From positions 2,046,001-2,110,000 of the forward strand of contig NZ_CP102381.1 of the NCBI RefSeq assembly GCF_029201445.1: 64,000 nt of DNA. Reading direction: 5' to 3'. This document shows positions 15,035 through 30,510 of this stretch, one piece after another. Numbering within the stretch: position 1 is the first letter of the stretch; each line of letters starts with the position of its first letter. The position numbers and the translations under genes were made by a program. Origin of the DNA: Thiomicrorhabdus lithotrophica (GTDB lineage: Bacteria; Pseudomonadota; Gammaproteobacteria; Thiomicrospirales; Thiomicrospiraceae). The notes beneath the pieces were generated by a model. It was not told where the DNA came from. It saw only the letters and a program-made list of their open reading frames with translations, and did not search any database.

Positions 15035-15859
15035 TTAAGCAAATTTAACCGCTTTAAAGAAACGAATCTGCGCTAAAGCAACTTGTTCCATTGAATTAGC
15101 CACAATAGCAACCACACCACCTTTTACTGGCACAATTTCACCTTGATAACCACTCTTTTGAAAAGCGTGCATCGCTTCTACTTGCTGTCCGGGCATCACA
15201 ATAATTGTCACAGGCTGGCCTTGCTCTTGCATCACAATATGTAAACCCAGCTGACCTTCCACATCACACATTCCGGCGTAACTCATCCCTTCAACAGGTT
15301 TAGAGAGTTGTGCGCCAACATTCGCAAATAACTGCTGTAACTCTTGTTCACTATTAGGGAGTTTTACAGCCGTCATTAAACTTGGGTCGTGTTCAATATG
15401 AGCAATGATATGATCAATTGTTGCCTCACCGGATAAAGGAGTGATATGTTGAGAGTTTTGCCAAACACCAAGCAAAATCGCTACACCCATTACACTGGCC
15501 GCCAGCCCCATTTTCCAAGAACCAAACAATACTCTATTTATCCAGCCTGTTTGAGCCTCATTACTCACTGAAGGTTCAAGCACGGTGACATTATCAATAC
15601 CCATCGCGTCTTTATCTGCTTGCTCTACATTTACAGAACCTGTCTCCAAGTTCTCCTGATAACTTTGATTAAGAAGAATGCGAGCATGCAATCCTTCTGG
15701 CACTTCAACATCTAACACGTCTGAAAGAGTTTGATCAAAGTCCCTAGCGCTTTGAACCAGTGATTTCTTTTCAGGGTAATCTTCTAAATACTCAATCATT
15801 TCATCATCTAAAATTTGAGGGTGCGTCAGCAATTTTGTACGAAATGTCATTTCATTCAT
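15035..15859 (-). CDS. DUF3379-like membrane protein, likely partner of the ECF sigma factor
   Basis: A cytoplasmic N-terminal half (1-114), one membrane segment at about 115-133 (MGLAASVMGVAILLGVW) and a C-terminal periplasmic domain. It overlaps the upstream sigma factor gene by four bases (ATGA), the usual arrangement for an anti-sigma factor, and its content resembles the DUF3379 family found beside ECF sigma genes in marine gammaproteobacteria. No zinc-binding anti-sigma motif (HxxxCxxC) is visible. The anti-sigma role is inferred from topology and coupling. Confidence 0.68.
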   Translation of the reverse strand: MNEMTFRTKLLTHPQILDDEMIEYLEDYPEKKSLVQSARDFDQTLSDVLDVEVPEGLHARILLNQSYQENLETGSVNVEQADKDAMGIDNVTVLEPSVSNEAQTGWINRVLFGSWKMGLAASVMGVAILLGVWQNSQHITPLSGEATIDHIIAHIEHDPSLMTAVKLPNSEQELQQLFANVGAQLSKPVEGMSYAGMCDVEGQLGLHIVMQEQGQPVTIIVMPGQQVEAMHAFQKSGYQGEIVPVKGGVVAIVANSMEQVALAQIRFFKAVKFA

Positions 15860-16389
15860 TTTTTTGCTCCCTCTTGTTCCATCATTAAATTAAGTACTGC
15901 GTTTTCATCATTAACTAGTTGTTTCAATTGCTGTCTCGCTCTAAAAAGCCGAGTATTGACTGTGGCTAATTTCAAGTCGAGCTCATTCGCAATTTCATCG
16001 CCACTAAACCCCCACATAACTTGCAGAATAAGGGGTTCTTTATACTCATCAGGCAATTTCAATATCATATGGTGTAGCTGTTCTTTTTCTAATTTATTAC
16101 TTGGTTCATTACGATAATCATCGGCAACTAAGCTCTCTTCTATCTCTAGTAATTGCGGCTGATACTTTTCATAAAGTCGAGCATTTTCTCGCCTTAAAAT
16201 GGTAATCAACCATGCTTTACCTGCCTTTTCATCCTTTAAACTTTCAATTGATTTCCAGGCACGAGCAAAGGTTTCTTGCACCAAATCTTCTGCTAGCGTG
16301 GGTTGTTTGCACAACCAATAAGCATAACGATAAAGATCATTTGCATAGGCCGAAACCAGCTGTTCAAAAAAACGATTTTTATGCTGCAT
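15856..16389 (-). CDS. ECF-type sigma-70 family RNA polymerase sigma factor
   Basis: 177 residues with region 2 (YANDLYRYAYWLCKQPTLAEDLVQETF, with the DLVQETF core-binding helix) and region 4 (LPDEYKEPLILQVMWGFSGDEIA, then the recognition helix segment TVNTRLFRARQQL). Regions 1 and 3 are absent, as expected for ECF sigmas. Co-transcribed with the overlapping DUF3379-like gene. The stretch between it and hmuV is 122 bases and could hold its own promoter; I could not recognise an ECF-type -35/-10 there. Confidence 0.9.
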   Translation of the reverse strand: MQHKNRFFEQLVSAYANDLYRYAYWLCKQPTLAEDLVQETFARAWKSIESLKDEKAGKAWLITILRRENARLYEKYQPQLLEIEESLVADDYRNEPSNKLEKEQLHHMILKLPDEYKEPLILQVMWGFSGDEIANELDLKLATVNTRLFRARQQLKQLVNDENAVLNLMMEQEGAKK

Positions 16390-16511
16390 GGAATAGTCTC
16401 AAGTACATGGAATTTTCTCTTATTAGATATACTAACCTTAACAACTGCTTACTAGACAAGACCGTCTAGTCTGATAAAACTTTCAAACAAGTAAAGATTA
16501 ATTAAACTTTA

Positions 16512-17333
16512 TTACTCATATTCTAAAACAGGCAGAATCATAGGCTGTTTTATGCCATAAATATCTACAGCGAGCGTCTTCAAGTCTAAGGTATGCAGTA
16601 TATTCTCAGGAGTTAAAACTTCTTCAGTCGAGCCTTCAGAAACCAGCTTACCGGCTTTTAGTATTTTTACTTTATCGGCTAGTTGACTGGTTAAATTTAA
16701 ATCATGTAACACCATCACAACCCCTAAACCTTGCTGTGCCCAGCGCTTAAAACAACTTGATAATAATTGCTGGTGATGTAAATCTAAACTACTGGTCCAT
16801 TCATCTAAAAATAACCACTTTCCTGAAAAAGGCTTAGTTTGATTAGCCTGTAAAGGCTCTAACGGCCATATTTGTGCTAACACTCTTGCTAGCTGAACAC
16901 GCTTTTGTTCGCCACCTGACAAGGTCACGACATCACGCTCTGCTAAATGCTCTATATCACATACTTGCATTGTAGCCTGGGTGATTAAATTAGCATTGCT
17001 TGGTTGTTGTTGTACCTCTGCTCCCAATTTAACTAACTGCTGAACCTTAAGAGAAAACACCATGTTTTGTAGTTGAGGTAACACAGCACGCTGCATTGCA
17101 AGCTCCGCAAAAGAGCAAGAATCTAATTCTGTGTCTTGCAAGAATATCTGTCCCGAACTCGGTGTCAGCTCTTTACTTAATAGTGATAACCAGGTTGATT
17201 TACCAGCACCATTTTTACCTAAAATAACACTAATTTCACCACTATTAAAAGTACTGTTAATCTCTTCTAACAACAGTTTAGATTGCACTTTGTAATTTAC
17301 GTTTTGGCAAAGAATTTCAGAAATCTGCAACAT
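16512..17333 (-). CDS. hmuV: Heme/iron ABC transporter ATP-binding protein (HmuV-like)
   Basis: ATPase of a type II importer. Walker A is GKNGAGKS (39-46 from the chosen start), signature LSGGEQKRVQLARVLAQ, Walker B WLFLDEWTSSLD, switch His in MVLHDLN. The ELAMQRAVLPQ segment after the Walker A region is characteristic of HmuV. The ATG at 17333 overlaps the permease stop codon (TAATG) and is preferred to an upstream TTG. Walker B carries Trp where DEPTSS is usual (DEWTSS). A B12 or siderophore substrate cannot be excluded. Confidence 0.82.
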   Translation of the reverse strand: MLQISEILCQNVNYKVQSKLLLEEINSTFNSGEISVILGKNGAGKSTWLSLLSKELTPSSGQIFLQDTELDSCSFAELAMQRAVLPQLQNMVFSLKVQQLVKLGAEVQQQPSNANLITQATMQVCDIEHLAERDVVTLSGGEQKRVQLARVLAQIWPLEPLQANQTKPFSGKWLFLDEWTSSLDLHHQQLLSSCFKRWAQQGLGVVMVLHDLNLTSQLADKVKILKAGKLVSEGSTEEVLTPENILHTLDLKTLAVDIYGIKQPMILPVLEYE

Positions 17334-18358
17334 TACTTGACCCAACCTTTACGCTGATTCAGCAACATCACTAAAAAGAATGGGCCACCTAACAGTGCCA
17401 TAAAGAGCCCTATCGGTAATTCGGAAGGCACAATGATTGTTTTAGCAATCCAATCGGCAAACACTAATAGTACAGCGCCTGCCAAAGCACTCAATGGAAT
17501 CAGTTGACGATGATCAGAACCGATCCATAAACGGATAATGTGTGGCACAATCAGGCCAACAAAACCAATCACTCCCACGGTAGCCACCGCCACTCCTACC
17601 ATAAAGGCACTACCCCACATAATTTGCCATTTGATATGTTTGTTATCATATCCCATGTGCAAACTGATATTTTCGCCCAACATAAAGGCATTTAAAGGGC
17701 GTGCTAAGCGCCATAACAACAAAGACATTATGACCGTGACCGTGGTAACGATGCTCACTGCTGACCAACTTACGTTGGCAAAAGAACCCATCATCCAAAA
17801 CGTGACGGTACGTAACTGTAAATCATCTGAAATACTAATAAGTAGTTGGGTGCCCGCGCCAGCTATAGCATTCACAGCTACACCAGCCAATAACATTAAG
17901 GCCACATCAGTCCTGCCATAACGTGTTGCAAGCGAATAGATAAACCAAGTTGCCAGGCCTGCACTAATAAAAGCGGCTAGACTCATCTGCCAAGCGGCAA
18001 TCGACCCAAACAAAGTCGAACCTAAAACAATCATAAAAACCGCGCCTAAAGCAGCACTGCTGGAAACGCCAATTAATCCAGGTTCTGCCAATGGGTTTCT
18101 AAACAGAGCTTGCAGTGCCACCCCTGAAATAGCCAGGCCTGCTCCAATCACCAAAACAACAACTAGACGAGGTAAACGTAACTCCCAAAGAACCAAAGAC
18201 TGTTGAGAGTTTAACCCTGTTAAATATGCTGAGCTATCTATATTCACGCTACCCGAACTGATGTGTAAAACCAATCCCAATAACAACAACAACGTTAACA
18301 CGAATACTGCAAAACGAGTGGTATGTAAAAATTGAATTTGAGTAGCGGGATTATTCAC
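17333..18358 (-). CDS. hmuU: FecCD-family ABC transporter permease (HmuU-like)
   Basis: Hydrophobic protein of 341 residues with about ten predicted membrane segments and the FecCD signatures GAGLAISGVALQALFRNPLAEP and GFVGLIVPHIIRLWIGSDHR. It forms the membrane pore for the HmuV-like ATPase. The start codon overlaps the end of yihY by eight bases and its stop is fused to the ATPase start, so yihY-hmuU-hmuV form one unit. No periplasmic binding protein or TonB receptor gene is adjacent. Two near copies of the iterated palindrome core lie inside the gene. Confidence 0.85.
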   Translation of the reverse strand: MNNPATQIQFLHTTRFAVFVLTLLLLLGLVLHISSGSVNIDSSAYLTGLNSQQSLVLWELRLPRLVVVLVIGAGLAISGVALQALFRNPLAEPGLIGVSSSAALGAVFMIVLGSTLFGSIAAWQMSLAAFISAGLATWFIYSLATRYGRTDVALMLLAGVAVNAIAGAGTQLLISISDDLQLRTVTFWMMGSFANVSWSAVSIVTTVTVIMSLLLWRLARPLNAFMLGENISLHMGYDNKHIKWQIMWGSAFMVGVAVATVGVIGFVGLIVPHIIRLWIGSDHRQLIPLSALAGAVLLVFADWIAKTIIVPSELPIGLFMALLGGPFFLVMLLNQRKGWVK

Positions 18359-19352
18359 TTTTACTTTCCACGGGTATTGCTGTATTTGCTTTTTTAACTG
18401 AATTTGATTTCTGCAATTTTGACTCTTTTGCTCGATTGGATTTCTCTGAGTTGGTTTGCAAAATATTGCTTTTTAACAAAGTCACGACCACCGCGCCGTT
18501 CCAAATCACAATAAACCAGACTAAATACAACCAAAGCAGAAACAGCGGCACCGCAGCGAACGCTCCATAAACCAAGGCATAAGTAGGAAACCATTCAACA
18601 TATAAAGCAAAACCAGATTTAAGCAACTCTAGCTGAAGCATGGCAAAGAGGCCACTAATCAACGCAACATTAAATGGAACCTTTGCGACAGGCACCATTT
18701 TATAGAGCGCAGTAAACCCTAACCAAGCCAAAATAAGCGGTACAATTTGCATACCTGAAGTTAATTTATCAATCCAAGGCGTCGTTTCTACAAATAATGG
18801 CAAAGCCAAAAGTGATGAGCTCGCAACCAAACTTAAACCTAAAAGCAACGGGCCTAAAAGACTAACCCCTAAATAATGAAGCAAACTCACCCACCACTTA
18901 CGCTCTAATCGTTCAGACCAAAGACCATTCAGCTTTTGATCCACTTTCCAAAGTAACATTAAGGTAGTAAACAGCATAACTACCAGGCCTGGTCCTTTTA
19001 AGTCTGCCGCTTGTAAAGAAAATTTGAATAGATATTCTTCAATCACAGGTTGAGAATTTGGCATCAAGTTACGTACCACTTGCTCCATCACTAGGCTTTC
19101 AAAAGAAGCAAAGTAACTCGAAACCGAAAACAGACCCAACATCACGGCTAACATCGGCACAACACCAATCAATGAGGTATAGGCTAAAATCGCCACCGAA
19201 TCGGTGCCTTGACGGTTTATAAAGTGCAAAAACACTTGCTTCCAAAAGTGCCAATTACTTACCTGTTTAAGCAAGTTAAACATCGTCATTGATTGAGATA
19301 TTGGTTTTGGTTCTGTTTGAGACTTAGCTTGCAAAGGTATTGCTCCAGACAT
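18351..19352 (-). CDS. YihY/UPF0761 family inner membrane protein
   Basis: Six predicted membrane segments and the family motifs ILAYTSLIGVVPMLAV, a central WxxxxxNGLW-like segment (DQKLNGLWSERLERKWW) and a C-terminal LLWLYLVWFIVIWNGAVV. The old name RNase BN for this family is not supported. At 333 residues it is longer than E. coli YihY (290), with an N-terminal extension and a Lys/Ser-rich C-terminal tail. Its co-transcription with the heme transporter genes is unusual. It contains an exact copy of the iterated palindrome. Confidence 0.85.
   Translation of the reverse strand: MSGAIPLQAKSQTEPKPISQSMTMFNLLKQVSNWHFWKQVFLHFINRQGTDSVAILAYTSLIGVVPMLAVMLGLFSVSSYFASFESLVMEQVVRNLMPNSQPVIEEYLFKFSLQAADLKGPGLVVMLFTTLMLLWKVDQKLNGLWSERLERKWWVSLLHYLGVSLLGPLLLGLSLVASSSLLALPLFVETTPWIDKLTSGMQIVPLILAWLGFTALYKMVPVAKVPFNVALISGLFAMLQLELLKSGFALYVEWFPTYALVYGAFAAVPLFLLWLYLVWFIVIWNGAVVVTLLKSNILQTNSEKSNRAKESKLQKSNSVKKANTAIPVESKSE
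18982..18993. repeat. Iterated palindrome ACCAGGCCTGGT, inside yihY-like gene
   Basis: Exact copy within coding sequence, read as GPGLV on the minus strand. Confidence 0.88.
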
Positions 19353-19496: not shown

Positions 19497-20345
19497 CTAC
19501 AAAGGTTTAACAATGGCTAGTGCTTGCAGTTGTTGAAGTGTTTGTTTAGCAAAATTAAAAAGCGTATTTTCATCAATCTCAATATTATGAGTGACGGCTA
19601 ACAATGCCGCTTTCGCCGATTTAAATTCAGGCAATTGCAGGAGCCATTGATATAACAGCGGTGTCAAATTCATAAAATCAACACGCTCATTACCCTGTTT
19701 ATCTTCCGTTCTGTATACCAACAAAGTAATTGTTTCAACTGGCTTTTCACTTGGTTGAAAATCTTTTGCCAATTGATGGACAGGCCACTCATAAGCCAAT
19801 AACCAAGCTAGCGGGGAAAGCTCATAATTTAAATCCAAATCTATTGGCTTGACATCATCTACAATCAAACCCACTTCTTCAGAGACTGATAATGCCAACT
19901 CAACCCATTCATAATGTGCCAGCTCTAATAAAAATTTAGGATCCGCTTCTAATAGAGAAAATTCACTTTCTAAAAAAATTAAAAACTCTTCACCCAATTG
20001 ATGAAACAGCGGCGTTTTTGCATTATGTTTAACCATGTATTCACGCACGACTTCATTCCAGCGTGAATCCCCTAAGATCTGCTTACAAACAGGAAACAGC
20101 TGACTAAAGAAATCTTGAAGATTATTAAAGAATAAGTCTTGATAGGCTTTAAGGCGCCTTGGTTCAATAGGTTGTTCATTGTCGGGTTGATAAGCGACTT
20201 CATCCGGATTACGAATGTGCGCAGCAAGCTGCACCTGTAACTGCTGAAAGTAAGGTAAGGCTGTTAAGTCAACATTTGAAGTTACCACACCCCGCAAGGG
20301 AGTATAAAGGCCTGATTGCTGGCTGGTGGAAGCCTTATGCGACAT
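19497..20345 (-). CDS. hvfC: DUF2063-family partner of an MNIO enzyme (HvfC/BufC-like)
   Basis: N-terminal DUF2063 domain (about residues 20-115, with AAHIRNP, RRLKAYQDLFFNNLQDFF and FPVCKQILGDSRWNEVVREYM) followed by a C-terminal HvfC-type domain. Family members act with the DUF692 enzyme as a recognition or scaffold subunit that delivers the precursor peptide. The true start is the ATG at 20345, which has GGAGA nine bases upstream and overlaps the end of the DUF692 gene by 11 bases; a longer frame to 20405 would lie wholly inside that gene. Last gene of the bufferin-type operon. Confidence 0.88.
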   Translation of the reverse strand: MSHKASTSQQSGLYTPLRGVVTSNVDLTALPYFQQLQVQLAAHIRNPDEVAYQPDNEQPIEPRRLKAYQDLFFNNLQDFFSQLFPVCKQILGDSRWNEVVREYMVKHNAKTPLFHQLGEEFLIFLESEFSLLEADPKFLLELAHYEWVELALSVSEEVGLIVDDVKPIDLDLNYELSPLAWLLAYEWPVHQLAKDFQPSEKPVETITLLVYRTEDKQGNERVDFMNLTPLLYQWLLQLPEFKSAKAALLAVTHNIEIDENTLFNFAKQTLQQLQALAIVKPL

Positions 20346-21177
20346 GAGAATCTCTCCAAGCTTTTTGATAGCCTCTGATTTGCTCAACCTCTTCAAGCAA
20401 TTCACTTAAAGGTGGAATATTAAAATCTCGTTCTAACAGTGTTGGGATAACTCCATGATGCTGATAGGTTTGCTCTAAAAGCGCCCAAACCTGTTCTTTG
20501 ACGGGTTGCCCATGAGTATCAATCTTTAGATCGTCCGCTTCATCAAAGTGCCCTGCCATATGCAGATACATCATACAGTCTGTCGGCATTGATTGCATAT
20601 ACTCTGTGGCATCATATTGGTGATTAATAGAATTCACATAGGTGTTATTTACATCAAACAGCAGGCCGCAATCAGCCTCTTCTAATACCGCTTTAACAAA
20701 TTCCTGCTCGGTCATTTGGCTGGTTGGCATTGCATAAAAAGAGACGTTCTCAATACCTATTTTTTGTTCAAGAATATCTTCTACTCTGCGAATTCTATCC
20801 GCAACATATTTGACGGCTTCTTCAGTGAATGGAACGGGCATTAAGTCATATAAATGACCGCTATCACCGCAATAGCTTAAATGTTCTGTATAGGCCCGAA
20901 TGTCATGTTTTTTAAAGAACTTTTTAAGAGAATATAAATAGTCTTCATCTAGCGGTTTAATACCACCTAAATCTAAAGATAAACCATGACATACAAAGGG
21001 AAAACGTTCGGTTAAAGACCTGAGTTGACGACCTTGCTTACCACCAAAATGTAACCAGTTCTCTGGAGCAATTTCCATAAAATCAACAGCAAAATCTGGT
21101 GTTTGTAAAACCTCATCAAAGAAGCTTCTTCTAAGACCTAACCCAACACCTTCTACAGGATACTTTTTTGAACTCAT
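20335..21177 (-). CDS. hvfB: DUF692 multinuclear non-heme iron oxidase (MNIO; HvfB/BufB-like)
   Basis: TIM-barrel oxidase of 280 residues. Characterised relatives (MbnB, TglH, HvfB, BufB) use two or three irons to convert precursor cysteines, with HvfB/BufB forming oxazolone-thioamide groups. Candidate metal ligands appear in HGLSLDLGG, ENVSFYAMP, LLFDVNNTYVNSINHQYD, MYLHMAGHFDE and DTHGQPV near the C terminus. Located directly between its likely substrate gene and the DUF2063 gene, overlapping the latter. An AGGTG seven to eight bases before the ATG supports the start. Confidence 0.92.
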   Translation of the reverse strand: MSSKKYPVEGVGLGLRRSFFDEVLQTPDFAVDFMEIAPENWLHFGGKQGRQLRSLTERFPFVCHGLSLDLGGIKPLDEDYLYSLKKFFKKHDIRAYTEHLSYCGDSGHLYDLMPVPFTEEAVKYVADRIRRVEDILEQKIGIENVSFYAMPTSQMTEQEFVKAVLEEADCGLLFDVNNTYVNSINHQYDATEYMQSMPTDCMMYLHMAGHFDEADDLKIDTHGQPVKEQVWALLEQTYQHHGVIPTLLERDFNIPPLSELLEEVEQIRGYQKAWRDSHVA

Positions 21178-21231
21178 CTAATACACCTAACGGCTAAGAC
21201 TTTAAATAACAAAAAACAACTTTTTAAAACA

Positions 21232-21243
21232 ACCAGGCCTGGT
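21232..21243. repeat. Iterated palindrome ACCAGGCCTGGT between RiPP precursor and MNIO gene
   Basis: Exact copy in the 200-base leader between the precursor and the MNIO gene. With flanking AAAAC and GGTTTT it forms a longer near-perfect stem (about 21226-21249), so the transcript may be attenuated here. Confidence 0.88.
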
Positions 21244-21377
21244 TGGTTTTCTCCAACTGAACCTATCTAGATGTTTTAAGAACCTGTTTAGTATGTTCTA
21301 TATGCAACCAACACGAAATGTAGATTTCATGCTGGTTTGATCATAGTGAAATTAAACTTAGTGAATCCTAGTTGTAA

Positions 21378-21728
21378 CTACTCTTTTGCGCCACATTTAC
21401 CTTCAGCTTTTTTACCACCACAAGCGCCTTCTTTTTTCTTGCCTCCACATGAACCTTCGGCTTTCTTGCCACCGCATGAACCTTCGGCTTTCTTACCGCC
21501 ACATGAACCTTCGGCTTTTTTACCACCACAAGAACCTTCAGCTTTCTTACCGCCACATGAACCTTCGGCTTTCTTACCACCACAAGAACCTTCCATGGCA
21601 ACTTGTGAATAGCCTGAGTCCATTTGCTTAAATCCAAATGGGTTTTCAGCGGCACTTGCAACACCAGAAGCACCAACCATTGCAGCACCCGCTAATTTTA
21701 AAAAATCTCTACGTGAATTTGTTTTCAT
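21378..21728 (-). CDS. hvfA: Bufferin/HvfA-type RiPP precursor with eight Cys repeats and a Tat signal
   Basis: 116 residues: a leader with perfect twin-arginine motif SRRDFLK (5-11), hydrophobic stretch and AxA cleavage site (ASA, 24-26); a short conserved segment AENPFGFKQMDSGYSQVAM (27-45) resembling HvfA proteins; then eight 9-residue units, six EGSCGGKK, one EGACGGKK and a final EGKCGAKE. Each unit has one Cys, the residue modified by MNIO enzymes in copper-binding bufferins and oxazolone-thioamide metallophores. GGAGAG lies six bases before the ATG. Upstream gene of the operon with the MNIO and DUF2063 genes. Export by Tat rather than Sec is unusual for this family. Confidence 0.88.
   Translation of the reverse strand: MKTNSRRDFLKLAGAAMVGASGVASAAENPFGFKQMDSGYSQVAMEGSCGGKKAEGSCGGKKAEGSCGGKKAEGSCGGKKAEGSCGGKKAEGSCGGKKKEGACGGKKAEGKCGAKE
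21381..21593 (-). repeat. 27-bp tandem repeat encoding the Cys motifs of the RiPP precursor
   Basis: Seven full 27-bp units and a final shorter unit, each coding one 9-residue Cys motif. Units differ at synonymous positions (for example GGCTTTCTTACC against GGCTTTTTTACC), so they are not a very recent slippage product but are still prone to copy-number change. This long array leaves open frames on other strands that are not genes. Confidence 0.9.
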
Positions 21729-21869
21729 AACTGCTCTCCGATTTCTCTATTTATAAGAATATGTAATCCTTGCAACTAATAAGACCTGCAAAAATTTTAT
21801 TTATTTCACATAATAAATATTTTTTTATTTAATGGTTAATGGAATAAAAGAGAAGAGATGTTTAGAACA

Positions 21870-30486: not shown

Positions 30487-30510
30487 TAAGTTACCAGGCC
30501 TGGTAACTTA
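30487..30510. repeat. Extended 24-bp perfect palindrome containing ACCAGGCCTGGT
   Basis: The exact core (30493-30504) is flanked by TAAGTT and AACTTA, giving 24 bases of perfect symmetry, the longest in the window. It lies between the tRNA promoter and the tRNA 5' end, so it would be in the tRNA leader transcript as a 10-bp stem with a GGCC loop. Confidence 0.92.

Follow-up and report, generated by a model that had tools for sequence, protein, structure and literature searches.

The window considered here is the whole analysed stretch of 64,000 nucleotides from the marine sulfur bacterium Thiomicrorhabdus lithotrophica, part of the single 2.52-Mb contig (NZ_CP102381.1) on which the genome-wide counts and searches for this organism were made. 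Its minus strand carries an operon of the HvfABC kind, predicted to specify a ribosomally synthesized and post-translationally modified peptide (RiPP) whose precursor bears an export signal of the twin-arginine translocation (Tat) type. Transcription runs from the hvfA-like precursor gene (21378..21728, 116 aa) through hvfB (20335..21177, 280 aa), which encodes a maturase of the multinuclear non-heme iron-dependent oxidase (MNIO, DUF692) family, to hvfC (19497..20345, 282 aa), which encodes a DUF2063 partner with an NGO1945_C domain of the RiPP recognition element type; hvfB and hvfC overlap by 11 bases. This is the gene order given by a first-pass annotation made from the sequence alone, and it is confirmed on the minus strand. 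For hvfC we used the start ATG at 20345, overlapping the stop codon of the MNIO gene, and not the GTG at 20405 at which the longest frame opens. The precursor start is supported by GGAGA upstream of its ATG, and GGAG(A) is found in most of 16 aligned loci.

Genes were named by Pfam and NCBIfam profile searches at curated cut-offs. The MNIO matches PF05114 (343.5 bits) and the NCBIfam HvfB model NF003818 (423.3 bits, cut-off 360), and stays under the threshold of the BufB model (271.2 bits, cut-off 310); the partner passes PF09836, PF22106 and the HvfC model NF050145 (223.4 bits, cut-off 142). By sequence, the nearest solved structures are PDB 3bww for HvfB (E 1e-71) and PDB 3dee for HvfC (E 1.5e-5). 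The closest named HvfB loci are from Thiomicrorhabdus (84, 80, 76 and 72% identity) and Thiomicrospira sp. WB1 (68%). The first-pass label had been "bufferin/HvfABC-type", and by these profile matches the operon is HvfABC, that is, of the oxazolin or captophorin type. The bufferin half of the label had to be given up: bufferins (Buf1, or DUF2282, and Buf2) are similar in having an MNIO, a DUF2063 partner and a precursor with a signal peptide, but here the BufB cut-off is not reached, PF10048 (DUF2282) has no match in the genome, and the precursor has no Buf2-type match. PF07681, the DoxX/HvfX partner that is common in such operons, likewise has no match anywhere in this genome.

The precursor begins with MKTNSRRDFLKLAGAAMVGASGVASA, followed by AENPF, and consists of the signal with its SRRDFLK motif, a conserved ENPFGF..MDSGYSQVA segment, and eight EGxCG units that contain every one of its eight cysteines: six EGSCGGKK, one EGACGGKK and one EGKCGAKE. 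Thus all eight units beside hvfBC have Gly after Cys, and one has Lys before it, so that the eight units, the single EGKCG form and the perfect twin-arginine motif of the first-pass description are all found in the protein. At the DNA level the array is a 27 bp tandem repeat with a 54-bp higher-order period. A simple filing under HvfA is opposed by the NCBIfam HvfA models, none of which matches the window precursor up to an E-value of 10, and the protein is therefore filed as a variant and not as a member by that definition; its relative L003, 82% identical in the alignment, passes one of these models (24.5 bits, cut-off 19.5).

In place of the signal for the general secretory (Sec) pathway by which the HvfA family is recognized, the precursor has SRRDFLK and passes the Tat-signal model TIGR01409 (23.6 bits, cut-off 16.7). 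Of the translocase components TatC was searched for, and the genome encodes it (PF00902, 227.3 bits); a Tat signal on the precursor is likely. For comparison with relatives, precursors were labelled by pattern together with a hand list of ten RR loci (L020, L054, L088, L111, L115, L118, L210, L223, L241 and L247), counted as Sec on account of a better ATG downstream of the RR; the label "Sec" means that no Tat motif is present. A looser version of the Tat test additionally flagged L230, L234 and L274, which the narrower one did not. RR was the rule by which the 35 distinct Tat precursors were selected; within this set the preceding residue is Ser or Thr in 33 and Asn in two, and each Arg position is encoded by four different codons. 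The h-region is also less hydrophobic, with a best 13-residue Kyte-Doolittle mean of 1.61 +/- 0.25 in the Tat set (n=35) against 1.95 +/- 0.20 in 149 non-Tat frames (8 of them from the family's order) and 1.62 in the window precursor.

The genus and three related ones carry the Tat motif in the HvfA-type precursors that were read beside HvfB (at L013 and L026 there is too little upstream sequence to read a precursor). We placed these genes on an HvfB tree of 131 rows, of which 27 are Tat-linked, 73 Sec-linked and 31 have no recognised neighbour; the tree was built quickly and its deeper branches are weak, and in it identical HvfBs were merged and the short fragment L163 (from the genome of L178) was left out. 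All 27 Tat rows fall into one clade (Shimodaira-Hasegawa-like approximate likelihood ratio test support 100) of 30 rows, the other three being one Sec row (G410) and two without an adjacent precursor. Of the 28 rows in which a neighbouring precursor could be read, 27 are thus of the Tat type. The fewest label changes that explain the tree are two, for example one gain and one loss. A class-wide search matched 109 of 369 genomes, and 100 loci from these (L032-L061 and L210-L279, not every matching place) were read; a frame with repeats came from 98 of them. Two (L032 and L038) belong to the family, and of the remaining 96 not one was classed as Tat. In the order, the precursor profile is matched by 38 of 62 genomes, in some only through the Tat signal of a larger protein, and an MNIO is present in 32. 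Three genomes (G016, G022 and G415) have a second MNIO, of the bufferin kind, whose DUF2282 neighbour lacks RR.

HvfA- and bufferin-type precursors are described with Sec or lipoprotein signals in the available portions of PMC12452194, PMC12636315 and PMC13419390. Among the papers listed by a literature search, which mostly does not cover subscription papers, none linked the twin-arginine motif to RiPP precursors, one that has it together with MNIO is unrelated, and one overlap with bufferins is incidental (PMC13328260). What is new, judged from the sequences compared, is that 27 of the 28 scored HvfBs in a single clade share a change from a Sec to a Tat-type signal, within an otherwise known RiPP family. 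The first-pass suggestion of a Tat-type signal holds as a prediction, given its retention in the HvfB clade, the less hydrophobic h-region and the TatC gene.

One further case comes from another precursor family. Among the DUF2282 loci (L295-L388, 93 of 94 read), RRxFL occurs in L298 and KRxFLK in L309 and L328, and six loci with RR ahead of a better start were left uncounted (L302, L326, L334, L365, L376 and L385). The L298 bufferin precursor (L290 2753-3028, genome G406) lies beside a second MNIO and starts with MDNSKLEARRMFLK. This is possibly an independent Tat-type signal, on a protein whose start codon is uncertain, with an internal Met after the RR.

The second set of observations concerns regulation. 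In the alignment of 16 hvfA upstream regions, TGAAATAAA recurs and is followed at a distance by GGTCTTA, and within the window the perfect sites with the exact spacing of 17 number two, both on the minus strand: TGAAA-N17-GGTCTT at 21781..21808, before hvfA, and the same box at 16458..16485, 5 kb away. The latter precedes the gene of a 177-aa extracytoplasmic function (ECF) sigma factor (15856..16389, minus; Sigma70_r2/r4_2; PRK12517 subfamily, 240.9 bits, cut-off 197), the candidate regulator of hvfABC, which may recognise the box. Overlapping the sigma gene is that of a DUF3379 protein (15035..15859, minus; PF11859, 121 bits, cut-off 33.2), a possible anti-sigma factor to judge from the position of its gene; DUF3379 is not named in the literature searched. 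Of the 15 relatives fetched, 13 have the sigma gene, followed by DUF3379, near hvf. Before hvfA, TGAAA-N17-GGTCT is present in 13 of the 16 loci (window and L398-L412), and a box within 160 bases of the sigma gene is found in the window and in 8 of 13 relatives, once with spacing 18. Four of the six spacing-17 sites of the genome lie 31-68 bases before msrP (NF003767, 455.3 bits, cut-off 207), a DUF4395 gene, the sigma gene and hvfA. The box before hvfA and the ECF sigma gene, recurring in relatives and also standing before msrP and DUF4395, is the other novelty of this locus, as far as its sequence goes.

Several results weigh against such a regulon. The box before hvfA is changed by one base in L402 and L409 and absent from L410; five of the 13 relatives have no strict box within 160 bases of the sigma gene (it is farther upstream in L400 and L406 and about 310 bases away in L398, L404 has a one-base variant, and L405 none that is clear); and the box was not found at L280-L283, L286 or L287. 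At spacings 16-18 the genome has 9 sites versus 7 in the reversed control, which is not a clear enrichment; four relatives together have 18 versus 12 in the control. Ten of these 18 are inside long frames, and the other eight stand before hvfA (3), the sigma gene (3), an msrP-type gene (1; it has PF00174 and its start resembles MsrP) and a DoxX gene (1), so that msrP follows a box in this genome and in only one of the four relatives. With hardly any genome-wide enrichment, the regulon therefore rests on the position and conservation of the sites.

The DUF4395 gene of the genome encodes a membrane protein and lies behind the same ECF-type box as hvfA (L394, 1563716-1563743 of the genome). It may belong to the same function, because its relatives in G403 and G404 adjoin hvfA.

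The box common to hvfA and msrP also speaks for a different purpose of the operon, defence against hypochlorite or oxidative damage and not copper binding. In Haemophilus influenzae, RpoE2 controls DoxX, COG3767, UPF0276 and DUF2063 genes together with MsrAB and MtsZ, which are methionine sulfoxide reductases, under hypochlorous acid (PMC7907618), and by domain content those genes are hvf genes. On the other side, the characterised captophorins bind Cu (PMC13097082). Both roles may coexist, and we regard a purely defensive operon as possible, at a clearly lower probability than a metal-binding one.

Somewhat less probable still is that the RR motif is a relic or a coincidence and that the peptide leaves by Sec. 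Twin-arginine signals are also able to work through Sec; the core of the peptide is small and perhaps need not be folded, and the Pfam TAT_signal profile PF10518 gives the precursor 19.5 bits, below its cut-off of 22.7. To these points against Tat export must be added the precursor of G410, which lies within the HvfB clade and is not of the Tat type, and non-Tat HvfA-like genes in the genus (L202, L204, L205, L207, L208 and L209), none of them read beside an MNIO. Known HvfA and bufferin precursors also use Sec (PMC12452194, PMC13419390). What makes the Sec route unlikely in our view is that RR is kept across four genera while the repeats diverge freely, that the signals here read S/T-R-R-x-F-L-K as against the K-rich n-regions of non-Tat precursors, and that their h-region is less hydrophobic.

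HvfA-like genes also occur apart from a maturase. Five genomes at least 99% complete have them and no PF05114 match (G012, G013, G019, G216 and G417); G019 and G216 have one Tat-type HvfA-like gene each, which counts against the main reading, and the non-Tat genes of G012 and G216 adjoin DoxX and ECF sigma genes. Loci of this kind, from genomes of the genus that lack a PF05114 match, are L282, L283, L284, L285, L286 and L287, with Tat-type precursors in L282 and L283 and non-Tat ones beside DoxX and an ECF sigma gene in L286 and L287. In G403 and G404 (L280 and L281) a Tat precursor lies beside genes for DoxX, a 2-oxoglutarate-Fe(II) oxygenase and DUF4395, and the MNIO/DUF2063 pair is found elsewhere (L288 and L289). 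The MNIO-less genomes and this arrangement suggest that an HvfA peptide can exist without a maturase nearby. That it would act mainly in unmodified form, as a Cys-rich thiol buffer or metal sponge of the periplasm for which MNIO modification is optional, is improbable all the same, since the five genomes that speak for it are set against the window and the tree's 27 Tat rows, where HvfB is encoded beside the precursor.

Neither does the residue before the cysteines set the peptide apart. The first-pass annotation saw in the Ser and Gly substitutions around Cys a possible new substrate class, an idea that we rejected because EGSCG is common in non-Tat precursors (20 of 149 HvfA-type frames, compared with 3 of 35 Tat precursors) and because FonBC is tolerant at that position. 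At position 3 of the unit, Tat precursors have Lys in 208 of 244 units and Ser in 13, and non-Tat precursors have Lys in 802 of 940 and Ser in 59; in two non-Tat precursors all Cys are in EGSCG (9/9 in L272 and 6/6 in L244). FonBC takes Ala, Arg and Thr before Cys, with Phe and Glu being poor, and requires a small residue after it; Ser at the preceding position is not mentioned in the available portion of that account (PMC13097082). The Ser of the window peptide looks like ordinary variation within a tandem repeat.

The gap between hvfA and hvfB (21178..21377, minus) has a stable predicted RNA fold (z -3.85, a stability that none of 200 shuffles reached), and this fold could conceivably limit read-through. 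A terminator scan of the region gave 2 sites versus 2.1 expected, and in the gap it found one on the plus strand and none on the minus strand. The gap also contains one copy of the palindrome CAGGCCTG (21234-21241). It was rejected as an operon-specific operator in view of its frequency: the window has 26 copies, where dinucleotide shuffles predict 0.57 and base composition 0.34, and the genome has 881, compared with 2 copies of the reversed control. Examples in the window lie at 21234-21241, 18984-18991 and 30495-30502, and the palindrome is usually extended to ACCAGGCCTGGT; 14 of the 26 window sites are outside long frames, which make up 84% of the window, and copies across the 62 genomes of the order range patchily from 0 to 1,173. 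It looks like a highly iterated palindrome or a sequence of the DNA-uptake type. Genes for a FecCD-type permease and an ABC ATPase lie on the minus strand at 16512-18358, between BrkB and the ECF sigma gene, and possibly encode an importer of the iron, heme or cobalamin type.

Taken together, the locus is best read as an HvfABC RiPP operon with a Tat-type signal, controlled by the ECF factor along with msrP and the DUF4395 gene, whose product is modified on Cys before Tat export and binds a soft metal in the periplasm; we hold this probable, with real room for doubt. Envelope or metal stress would free the sigma factor from its DUF3379 partner, and the sigma factor would then transcribe hvfABC from the TGAAA-N17-GGTCTT box, together with its own gene, msrP and the DUF4395 gene. 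In the cytoplasm HvfC would hold the precursor while HvfB oxidises the eight EGxCG cysteines, probably to 5-thiooxazoles (-4 Da each). Thereafter the peptide would exit through Tat, with cleavage predicted after ASA, and in the periplasm would bind Cu(I) or another soft metal, MsrP repairing oxidised methionines there. Release of an already folded, copper-loaded peptide through Tat is possible.

Past the signal, Tat and non-Tat precursors have a common stretch, ENPFGFKQMDSGYSQVA in the window and NPFGLSALDGGYMQVA and similar elsewhere. GY is present in 29 of the 35 Tat frames and in 138 of the 149 that are non-Tat, and these counts, like those of NPF, are biased upward because frames without an NPF-like anchor were excluded. 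In H. influenzae, HvfA lacking its signal is poorly modified, and the signal therefore acts there as a part of the leader (PMC13419390). How Sec-type MNIO precursors escape export before modification is a question raised in PMC12452194. As a tentative answer, and one that may well prove wrong, the Thiomicrorhabdus/Hydrogenovibrio family could have made a single switch of a thiooxazole RiPP from Sec to Tat, by which modification, and perhaps copper loading, would be complete before export; Tat quality control would then replace whatever brake acts on Sec-type precursors, and HvfC recognition would lie in the NPF...GY segment, not in the signal. A natural Sec-to-Tat swap on a similar system offers a direct test of which of the two, signal or NPF...GY segment, directs HvfBC.

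Among known systems, the closest is HvfABC/oxazolin of H. influenzae, with fontiphorin, bulbicupramide and gonophorin (the "captophorins"), which has the same HvfB and HvfC families, gene order and EGxCG repeats (PMC13419390, PMC13097082). The Thiomicrorhabdus operon differs in its Tat-type signal in place of a Sec one, in Ser instead of Lys before six of eight Cys in a 9-residue EGSCGGKKA unit, and in a genome without a DoxX (PF07681) match. The lipidated oxazolin NedA of Neisseria dentiae is another case of an HvfA-type core on a different export signal, shown there by experiment (PMC12636315); that signal is of the lipoprotein (signal peptidase II) type, and the one here is of the Tat type. 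On the regulatory side, YedY is MsrP. The Caulobacter sigmaF-NrsF system controls two DUF2282-DUF692-DUF2063 operons, one of them with DoxX, and the molybdoenzyme YedY (PMC3511200), thus placing, as the box would here, MNIO operons and an MsrP-type molybdoenzyme under an ECF factor. The parts differ: a DUF2282 precursor, a DUF1109/NrsF anti-sigma factor and a GTAACC-N16-CGAA box in Caulobacter, an HvfA-type precursor, a DUF3379 partner and TGAAA-N17-GGTCTT here. The resemblance of this pairing to those of Caulobacter and Haemophilus supports, by analogy, a joint role of the operon in metal and periplasmic oxidative stress, and the occurrence of the box before msrP as well suggests that here another sigma factor, after those two, pairs MNIO metallophores with methionine-sulfoxide repair.

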